In this document: positions 1,358 to 4,113 of the stretch, in pieces
Position numbering within the stretch: the stretch's first letter is position 1
Layout: each line of letters begins with the position of its first letter
DNA from: a virus
Strand: one strand, 5' to 3'
IMG/VR virus record: IMGVR_UViG_3300050119_000067
Coordinates: 1 to 30,374 of that record
Length of the DNA: 30,374 bases
Made by a program: the position numbers and the translations under genes
Notes under the pieces: generated by a model
Databases searched by the model: none
The model's input: the letters and a program-made list of their open reading frames with translations, nothing else
Told to the model about the DNA's origin: nothing

Positions 1358-1588
1358 TCAGAACGCTATAATTTTCACGCGGGATCCGACGCTAGAGTAG
1401 GTAGCAATCGCCACCATCCCCGCCCGTCTCGCGAGGCGCACGCTCTGGTCAGGACAAATGGGGTCATCGCCGCCAAATGTGGCCAGCTTACCATGAGCAT
1501 CCAGCGCGAGGACAGGGCACCCAGAGGCGTTGTGGCGATTTCCAGGGAAAAACGAGGTGGGGAACTTGGTGTTGATGTCGTTGGTCAT
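1358..1588 (-). CDS. Small hypothetical early protein, first gene of leftward operon
   Basis: This is a 76-residue protein (begins MTNDINTKFPTSFFPGNRHN). ATG 1588 was preferred over longer starts because AAGGGG stands about six bases upstream and the leftward promoter at 1630-1657 would start transcription near 1622, excluding upstream ATGs. The sequence holds two Cys residues and a Gly-Gly-Asp-Asp turn but no motif I recognise. It is the promoter-proximal gene of the leftward set. Confidence 0.65.
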   Translation of the reverse strand: MTNDINTKFPTSFFPGNRHNASGCPVLALDAHGKLATFGGDDPICPDQSVRLARRAGMVAIATYSSVGSRVKIIAF

Positions 1589-1629: not shown

Positions 1630-1657
1630 AAGATAAGCCCAGCCGTGTGAATGTCAA
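1630..1657 (-). promoter_or_regulatory. Leftward sigma-70-type promoter
   Basis: Read on the minus strand, a perfect -35 box TTGACA (1657-1652) is followed after 16 bases by TATCTT (1635-1630). Transcription would begin near 1622, leaving about 35 bases of leader with a ribosome binding site before ATG 1588. The strength of the -35 box and its place at the head of the leftward cluster make this a good early promoter candidate. Confidence 0.65.
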
Positions 1658-1673: not shown

Positions 1674-1703
1674 TTGACGAAAAAGGCGGGATGGGGCTAT
1701 TGT
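1674..1703 (+). promoter_or_regulatory. Candidate rightward promoter, divergent from the leftward one
   Basis: TTGACG (1674-1679) is followed after 18 bases by TATTGT (1698-1703). The -35 boxes of the two divergent promoters lie only 16 bases apart, as is typical of a shared early control region. Transcription would begin near 1710 and run through the hairpin cluster at 1737-1825 before the first rightward gene at 2151. The match is weaker than that of the leftward promoter. Confidence 0.4.
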
Positions 1704-1736
1704 CCCCCGGTCGGCTGGCAAGGAGCCAGAACGACG

Positions 1737-1825
1737 AAGGCCTCCGACGCAAACCGGAGGCCTTCAAGCAAAACTGTCCTAATGGGGGGGCAGGACAGTA
1801 AGGCTCAATATCGTTTAATTGAGCC
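1737..1825. promoter_or_regulatory. Three consecutive perfect hairpins in the divergent control region
   Basis: Three inverted repeats follow each other with short gaps. AAGGCCTCCG (1737-1746) pairs with 1755-1764, a 10-bp stem with an 8-base loop. ACTGTCCT (1773-1780) pairs with 1792-1799, an 8-bp stem whose loop holds seven G. GGCTCAAT (1802-1809) pairs with 1818-1825, an 8-bp stem with an 8-base loop. None is followed by a T run on either strand, so simple intrinsic terminators are not favoured. If the rightward promoter is real, these would be the first folded elements of its RNA. Confidence 0.7.
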
Positions 1826-1855
1826 GAATGTCAACCACCTCCCCTCTGGACGACC

Positions 1856-1901
1856 AGCGATCGAACGAGCCGCGTGGCCACGCGAATCACACTCGATCGC
1901 T
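1856..1901. promoter_or_regulatory. Composite palindrome
   Basis: A perfect 14-bp palindrome (cgcgtggccacgcg, 1871-1884) is nested inside a 9-bp inverted repeat, AGCGATCGA at 1856-1864 and TCGATCGCT at 1893-1901. It lies just beyond the triple hairpin. It could be a protein-binding operator or a further RNA hairpin. Confidence 0.55.
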
Positions 1902-2150
1902 GTTTCCAAACCAACCTAGGCGCTCAGACGCGCTTTTCGGAACGCGATTGATTTGCCAAAAGCAAGTATTGTCTCTCTCTCGCGCGGGTGTGATCGCGCG
2001 CAATGTTACCTAACTACTAAAAACTCTTACTTACTTGTTGTAGACCCCTTTAACTAAGTCTGAGCCTTACATTGATAGGGGGGTCTGGGGGGTAAAATTA
2101 AAAAATCTTTTCGATAAAAACGCAGCGATAGAAAAACGGAGAACGGGAAA
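1902..2150. other. Non-coding stretch before the first rightward gene
   Basis: I see no convincing gene here. The region turns A+T-rich after about 2000. A 7-bp inverted repeat, AGACCCC (2042-2048) and GGGGTCT (2080-2086), encloses 31 bases. A second promoter or a long leader is possible, but no clear -35/-10 pair stands out. Confidence 0.4.
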
Positions 2151-2411
2151 ATGAGCGGCAGAATGAATTATCGAGGCACACAGCTTCGCCAGCATGTTCA
2201 GCGAGACGGGAAACTTCCATTGGATTTTTCGCTCGTTTCGCCGGATGAAATTTTGGCAGCGAGCAAGGGCGGCCTCGGCAAGGAATGGAGCAACCAAACC
2301 CTGCGCGAATGGGGCATTCCGATCCCGGCTCCTATGGGCTGGCGGCGCCTATTGGAGCGCCGATGGTTCGCAGCCGTGGCCAAGCGCCTGGTGACGAGAA
2401 AAAAACCGTAG
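2151..2411 (+). CDS. Hypothetical protein, first rightward gene
   Basis: This is an 86-residue protein starting at ATG 2151 with a GGAGAACGGGAAA ribosome-binding stretch upstream. It has a Trp-Ser-Asn-x-Thr-Leu-Arg-Glu-Trp-Gly-Ile segment (about residues 46-56) that could be a helix-turn-helix-like DNA-recognition unit choosing between positions by a Trp-Gly-Ile turn, followed by a basic C-terminus. I do not recognise the family. Its place as the first gene after the control region would suit a regulator, which is an inference. Confidence 0.6.
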   Translation: MSGRMNYRGTQLRQHVQRDGKLPLDFSLVSPDEILAASKGGLGKEWSNQTLREWGIPIPAPMGWRRLLERRWFAAVAKRLVTRKKP

Positions 2412-2491: not shown

Positions 2492-2716
2492 ATGAAGCCA
2501 ACCACAGTTCGTGAGGTTTACGAGGTTCTGGGAGGGACCACGGCGGTTGCCTGTCAGTTGGGCGTCAACCAGTCGGTTACCGGCAGCCACGCGGTCCGCA
2601 ATGGCATCCCGCCGCAGTATTGGGCGCAGATTATTTCGTTTGCGAAACGCAGGCGGCACAAGGAGATCACCGCGCAGCTCCTCGCCGAAATACATGATCC
2701 GAGGCGTCAATCGTGA
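2492..2716 (+). CDS. Small helix-turn-helix protein, Cro/YdaS-like candidate
   Basis: This is a 74-residue protein with AGGGGCGG about seven bases before ATG 2492. Residues about 7-45 read as an HTH of the type in which a bacterial-like Gly-Gly-x-x-x-Val/Ala-Cys-x-Leu-Gly-Val-Asn-Gln-Ser helix pair is followed by a recognition helix and then Trp-Ala-Gln-Ile-Ile. This pattern (growth of a Gly-Gly-Thr-x-Ala-Val-A turn, then N-G-I-P) is known from Cro- and YdaS-like phage regulators. Its stop overlaps the next gene as GTGA. DNA-binding early regulator is the likely role. Confidence 0.65.
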   Translation: MKPTTVREVYEVLGGTTAVACQLGVNQSVTGSHAVRNGIPPQYWAQIISFAKRRRHKEITAQLLAEIHDPRRQS

Positions 2717-3629: not shown

Positions 3630-4113
3630 AGCAGGATCTTCAAAAGCGGTCACCGGCCGCATGCCGACAAAGACCGATCTCGATAAGTTCGGGTCGCGCT
3701 GCGGAAGCCTGATGGAAAAGGCCAAGGAAGCGCAGGGCGAAGTCGGAAGCACCACGCGGGAGTTTGCCGACAAGTTCCAGATCGAGGCCAAATCCGTCAC
3801 TCTCTGGCGCTGGTTTCGCAATGCGGATCGGTCAAAGAGCGCGCTCGTCTGGGATCAGCTCAACATGATGATGGACACATCCGGTCTGAGCGACACGGAC
3901 GATTTGATTAAGCATGCGGCGTCCGATGACGGCGCTGTTGACCATGACTTCGATGAGGTTGGCGAAGGCGCTCCTCAGAACGGCGACGAGCCGCCTAATC
4001 CTGACGCGCAGGCGGCCGAGAAAAACGCCGCGGCGATCAAGAAAGGCATCAAGGCCGACAAGGCCGCCGCCGCCGCCGAGAAAGCGAAGACGCGCCAGTC
4101 GCCTATGCACTAA
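3610..4113 (+). CDS. Hypothetical early protein with acidic and Ala/Lys-rich tail
   Basis: This is a 167-residue protein starting at ATG 3610 behind a textbook AGGAGG. Residues about 18-100 form the conserved-looking part: Phe-Gly-Ser-Arg-x-Gly-Ser-Leu-Met-Glu-Lys-Ala-Lys, then a helix, then Leu-Trp-Arg-Trp-Phe, and an Asp-Thr-Ser-Gly-Leu-Ser turn. The second half is acidic, then Ala/Lys-rich and probably disordered or coiled. Proteins of this outline sit just before the resolvase in several alphaproteobacterial phages, as far as I recall. The function is unknown to me. Earlier in-frame ATGs lack a binding site. Confidence 0.65.
   Translation: MAEKLSKAGSSKAVTGRMPTKTDLDKFGSRCGSLMEKAKEAQGEVGSTTREFADKFQIEAKSVTLWRWFRNADRSKSALVWDQLNMMMDTSGLSDTDDLIKHAASDDGAVDHDFDEVGEGAPQNGDEPPNPDAQAAEKNAAAIKKGIKADKAAAAAEKAKTRQSPMH

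Follow-up and report, generated by a model that had tools for sequence, protein, structure and literature searches.

An uncultivated phage carries, in the gap separating two divergently oriented early gene clusters, a compact row of near-perfect hairpins that is non-random and far beyond what chance would produce. The block is probably a regulatory leader or control region, and the reading that we prefer, tentatively and with somewhat less than even confidence, is that it serves the rightward early transcript as a structured regulatory leader. The whole stretch of DNA analysed, here called the window, is the IMG/VR virus record IMGVR_UViG_3300050119_000067 with a length of 30,374 bases.

The window encodes a DNA methyltransferase, a RuvC-like resolvase and a DnaB-like helicase, followed by packaging and structural genes on the plus strand. 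Since the closest phage and prophage relatives of the methyltransferase come mostly from Alphaproteobacteria, the host is probably an alphaproteobacterium. The hairpin block sits in a 561-bp gap. At the left end of the window, small genes run leftward from position 1588; to the right of the gap, an early operon starts with a small gene at 2151 and continues with a Cro/YdaS-like gene and the methyltransferase gene (2713). The small genes next to the gap are the following:
1358 to 1588, minus strand: 76-aa gene that opens the leftward operon, with AAGGGG before its ATG.
2151 to 2411, plus strand: 86-aa gene that opens the rightward operon, with its ATG at 2151 and GGAG upstream.
2492 to 2716, plus strand: Cro/YdaS-like small gene, with a weak Pfam match below cut-off (PF15943, E 0.007).
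The 76-aa gene has no family match, and for the 86-aa gene a single distant counterpart was found in locus L148, with 40% identity over 50 aa. At the far left, the leftward gene at 1-703 (MLAYHNNPKIKANILKQLALHR...) has a low-complexity C-terminal repeat and is truncated by the left end of the record; its relatives (L452-L470) are at most 75% identical, and L452, the one that was read, closes with an Ala-rich repeat whose sequence is different. In L400, two adjacent perfect hairpins without T runs (3914-3966) lie directly 5' of a gene homologous to the one at 883-1107 in the window.

The structured region is made up of these elements:
1709 to 1735, plus strand: CUGGC-AAGGA-GCCAG, a short stem-loop extended on its outer side, which minimum free energy (MFE) folds place at the 5' end of the predicted transcript.
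1736 to 1765, plus strand: hairpin 1, an 11-bp perfect stem GAAGGCCTCCG/CGGAGGCCTTC (arms 1736-1746 and 1755-1765) with the 8-nt loop ACGCAAAC and a pairing probability of 1.0.
1773 to 1799, plus strand: hairpin 2, an 8-bp perfect stem ACTGTCCT/AGGACAGT (arms 1773-1780 and 1792-1799) with the 11-nt loop AATGGGGGGGC and the leftward tail TTTTGCTT.
1802 to 1825, plus strand: hairpin 3, an 8-bp perfect stem GGCTCAAT/ATTGAGCC (arms 1802-1809 and 1818-1825) with the 8-nt loop ATCGTTTA.
1855 to 1902, plus strand: hairpin 4, composite, a 10-bp stem CAGCGATCGA/TCGATCGCTG around the 7-bp palindrome CGCGTGGCCACGCG.
The earlier note had described stems of 10, 8 and 8 bp in a row; the two 8-bp stems are as stated, and the first stem is one base pair longer. 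Stretches with at least three non-overlapping perfect stems of at least 8 bp occurred in none of 3000 dinucleotide shuffles of 1590-2150. Over the whole window such hairpins number 10, against 7.9 in shuffles, and because this count is near chance level only the cluster of hairpins 1 to 3 is exceptional. Clusters of at least three hairpins were found three times in total, this one included, in 3.69 Mb made up of the window and related phage and prophage loci. RNA folding gave z = −6.1 for 1730-1830, and for 1736-1910 it gave −9.3 on the plus strand and −6.9 on the minus strand, the unusually stable block extending to 1902 with hairpin 4 included. The rest of the leader, about 250 nt at 1905-2150, is ordinary (z = +0.7), which limits the structure to a single block; the stability of the 5' stem-loop is modest (z = −1.9 for 1705-1735). 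A 90-aa open reading frame that runs across the block (1647-1919) was rejected as coding. Its G+C content by codon position is flat (0.57/0.56/0.59), and it has neither a PHROG nor a tblastn match; its non-coding appearance speaks for the leader reading.

Hairpins 1 to 3 consist of perfect Watson-Crick helices that have no sequence in common. They are therefore not copies of one operator, and the unrelated stems suggest selection for pairing, not for one binding motif. In the fold of the full leader, the pairing probabilities of hairpins 1, 3 and 4 are near 1 (0.999 for hairpin 4). Hairpin 2 is absent from the full-leader MFE structure. Nested long-range pairings take its place there, joining its 5' arm to 1848-1852 and its G7 loop (1784-1790) to CCUCCCC:
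1838 to 1844, plus strand: CCTCCCC, complement of the hairpin 2 G7 loop in the MFE fold, with a duplex energy of −15 kcal/mol; a candidate for long-range or pseudoknot pairing.
The long-range arrangement is predicted to be about 12 kcal/mol better than a forced local hairpin 2. G7 pairing and hairpin 2 could also coexist as a pseudoknot, a type of fold that the folding program cannot model. Because 11% of shuffled linkers pair equally well with G7, the pairing is a lead only.

Four promoter candidates belong to the region:
1674 to 1703, plus strand: rightward candidate TTGACG-18-TATTGT (TTGACG 1674-1679, TATTGT 1698-1703), 9/12 in a consensus scan.
1630 to 1657, minus strand: leftward candidate PL1, TTGACA (1657-1652), a 16-nt spacer and TATCTT (1635-1630), 10/12 in the consensus scan.
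1807 to 1834, minus strand: second leftward candidate PL2, TTGACA-16-GATATT, 10/12 in the consensus scan.
2072 to 2098, plus strand: TTGATA-15-TAAAAT, from a relaxed scan, a site with a short, G-rich spacer 53 nt ahead of the first rightward gene that may serve the rightward operon from closer by.
The first of these had been proposed in the earlier note and is present as described. From its position we infer a transcription start near 1710, in agreement with the proposal that the first stem begins at about +27 and, counted to the ATG at 2151 of the first likely gene, that the leader is about 440 nt long. Taken alone the match is weak; the gap of about 560 bp holds three of the four promoter-like matches in 6 kb. 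That a promoter candidate lies just 5' of the block and that gene order places the block in the early leader both speak for the leader reading. PL1 stands upstream of the leftward gene starting at 1588, and PL2 faces the rightward candidate, the predicted start sites lying face-to-face and about 90 bp apart. A 9-nt direct repeat GAATGTCAA (leftward TTGACATTC) at 1649-1657 and 1826-1834, 177 bp apart, provides the −35 element of both leftward candidates. It is the only repeat of its kind, and no iterons were found in the region.

Taken as DNA, hairpin 3 is a dyad covering the spacer and −10 element of PL2, which is a classical operator position. The dyads might then be repressor binding sites of the early switch and the hairpins incidental. 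Such operators would be in keeping with TTGACATTC being common to PL1 and PL2, with a dyad in L353 that overlaps a promoter-like site 5' of a leftward gene, and with spacers of 8-11 nt, a separation of 8-11 bp between half-sites being usual for dimeric regulators; the spacers and the overlap of hairpin 3 with the leftward promoter thereby count against the leader reading. However, the three dyads lack a common sequence, unlike the usual repeated phage operators, binding of three different proteins at adjacent sites 2-7 bp apart is unlikely, and the strand asymmetry of folding would not be expected. We therefore regard DNA operators as an unlikely explanation of the block.

The end of the structure at 1902 would also suit a stand-alone small regulatory RNA, roughly 190 nt long, that starts at the 1674 promoter and has its end or a processing site beyond hairpin 4; transcription of the operon would then begin at 2072-2098. 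The promoter-like sequence there is nearer to the first gene, and an operon leader started from it would not include the block, which counts against the leader reading. The 15-nt spacer of this site is suboptimal, however, the hairpin 4 tail TTTCCAAACC is a poor terminator (score −25), and no homologue of such an RNA was found in the collections searched, all of which makes a small RNA quite doubtful. An RNA processing site is another alternative.

Intrinsic terminators, that is a GC-rich stem followed by a T tract, were scored against a threshold with a formula that is reportedly that of d'Aubenton-Carafa and colleagues. The reference was this phage's own canonical leftward terminator at 1147-1126 with a score of −0.6. 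None of the hairpins reached the threshold on either strand; scores were negative for all stems both ways and clearly worse rightward for hairpins 1 to 3. Their rightward tails hold 0, 1-2 and 2 T in 8 nt (scores −20, −60 and −70) and their leftward tails 4, 5-6 and 4 T in 8 nt (scores −11, −19 and −35). The earlier claim that the stems have no T run thus holds in the rightward direction; leftward, hairpin 2 runs into TTTTGCTT. Unpaired bases on the plus strand comprise 15 A and 5 T (p = 0.02, in a test chosen after seeing the data), which is equivalent to T-richer tails leftward. The hairpin 1 stem is a widespread terminator-type stem, which recurs letter for letter in 12 other viral contigs, most of them scoring above 0 on at least one strand. 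Among these intrinsic terminators with GGCCTCCG/CGGAGGCC stems, most are flanked by a T tract on one side or both, whereas the window copy, placed between divergent genes, has TTCAAGC or TTCGTCG. The canonical terminator (1116-1147) lies between leftward genes and consists of a 9-bp stem, a loop of 4 and GTTTTTAA; its T run is followed without a break by the ribosome-binding site of the next gene, whose start is at 1107.

The T counts, the tail of hairpin 2 and the recurrence of the hairpin 1 stem, in many contigs with T runs, would fit a leftward terminator or insulator array that halts RNA polymerase coming from the right and so keeps it out of the divergent promoter region; the T-richer leftward tails therefore weigh against the leader reading. 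Set against this are leftward scores that stay below threshold, well under the value of the canonical terminator, and the lack of any leftward gene to the right of the block. An insulator is in our estimate rather unlikely, though the strongest of the rivals; along with DNA operators and a small RNA, it stays a serious alternative to the leader reading.

Homologues of 1590-2160 were found neither in searches of viral contigs, genome contigs, phages and plasmids nor in samples of alphaproteobacterial genomes drawn at three ranks (order, 397; class, 385; family, 297), and Rfam gave no match at the gathering threshold, its two sub-threshold matches having E values of at least 1.8. Both results count against the leader reading. 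Relatives were also sought through single genes: the first gene at 2151, DnaB (at most 40% identity), the methyltransferase at 2713 (at most 66%, a common gene without synteny), the 883 gene and the leftmost gene (at most 75%, no synteny). Neither these relatives nor those reached through the large terminase (at most 68%) carry the hairpin region; in the records searched for the latter, nothing convincing of the early region is shared. Related phages thus have single genes in common with the window, without synteny at the early region. Rhizobial phages (L042, L061, L062, L189 and others) share a double hairpin that was considered as a put-like family and rejected, since it lies inside a conserved gene on the opposite strand. 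This small gene, on the strand opposite the early operon, is found at L042:2276-2617, L062:3208-3546, L016:1954-2220 and about 13 more loci; RHph_N28_2 lists it as a hypothetical CDS, whereas phiLM21 has no annotation for it. Its hairpins are adjacent and near-perfect, with loops GACGAGG and GCGGCGG and covarying stems. Because this pair lies in a conserved gene, tandem hairpins alone are no proof of RNA function.

In the leader reading, which we prefer, transcription from the 1674 promoter would yield an RNA element from about 1710 to 1902, composed of the short 5' stem, hairpin 1, the hairpin 2/3 domain and hairpin 4, with about 250 nt of ordinary leader between it and the first gene. The hairpin 2/3 domain would switch between local hairpins and long-range pairing through the G7 loop. 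Acting as RNA and in cis, the element would shape early elongation or termination, shield the 5' end from decay, or both, and the level of the early operon would be set by it. Early control regions in phages of non-model alphaproteobacteria are poorly known, and the block between divergent early promoters is a small, concrete target for reporter tests. An operator or insulator region would be ordinary. Put, in enterobacterial phages, is essentially the one documented case of antitermination by RNA alone, and if the block itself acts on RNA polymerase it would be a second, independent case.

Among known systems, structured 5' leaders of phage and bacterial mRNAs include stabilising leaders of the ompA type and RNase III sites. 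The block resembles these in having strong stems close to the 5' end and a long leader behind; its stems of 8-11 bp are shorter than typical RNase III sites, and no known Rfam leader family matches.

The comparison with the put RNA of phage HK022, made in the earlier note, did not survive. We located HK022 putL and putR, gathered put relatives from phage records and built a covariance model, R1, from 11 put sequences. Known put sites score 72-90 bits with this model (HK022 putL 90, putR 72, HK639 78). The best score in the window at 1590-2200 is 2.5 bits, at 1640-1666, with none of the hairpins above 0, and in local alignments with putL and putR 93% and 10% of shuffles, respectively, score as high. 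The block is therefore not a put RNA. In the searched collection, put was found in phages of Enterobacterales. Elements without such annotation are present in phiEt88, UPF_BP1, CobraSix, S9-5 and PdC23 (L369, L370, L371, L372, L374, L376), the PdC23 copy being shorter and placed between divergent early genes. Put lets RNA polymerase read through terminators without a phage protein, an effect blocked by mutations in the beta-prime zinc-binding domain. In its two adjacent stem-loops, bulges and non-canonical pairs break up the helices and make contact with RNA polymerase, and its function requires the bulges, a triplex and specific unpaired bases (PMC9378689). The perfect stems of the block lack these interruptions, sequence and covariance matches are absent, and no second copy was identified on the other early transcript. 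Factor-independent, put-like antitermination by an unrelated RNA is accordingly very improbable, even though adjacent hairpins lie near an early phage promoter much as putL sits just 3' of PL (PMC9378689). We give equally little credence to an independently arisen put analogue, a new, sequence-unrelated cis-acting leader RNA whose two-state hairpin 2/3 fold would modify RNA polymerase without a phage protein. The strongly conserved put sequence CGAACGGC...GTCGG...GGCGGG...CAAT has no counterpart in the block, and put spans about 70 nt with two interrupted stems, whereas the window has four perfect or composite ones. What the two have in common is adjacent stem-loops without T runs at the start of an early phage transcript, a start that is here a predicted one.
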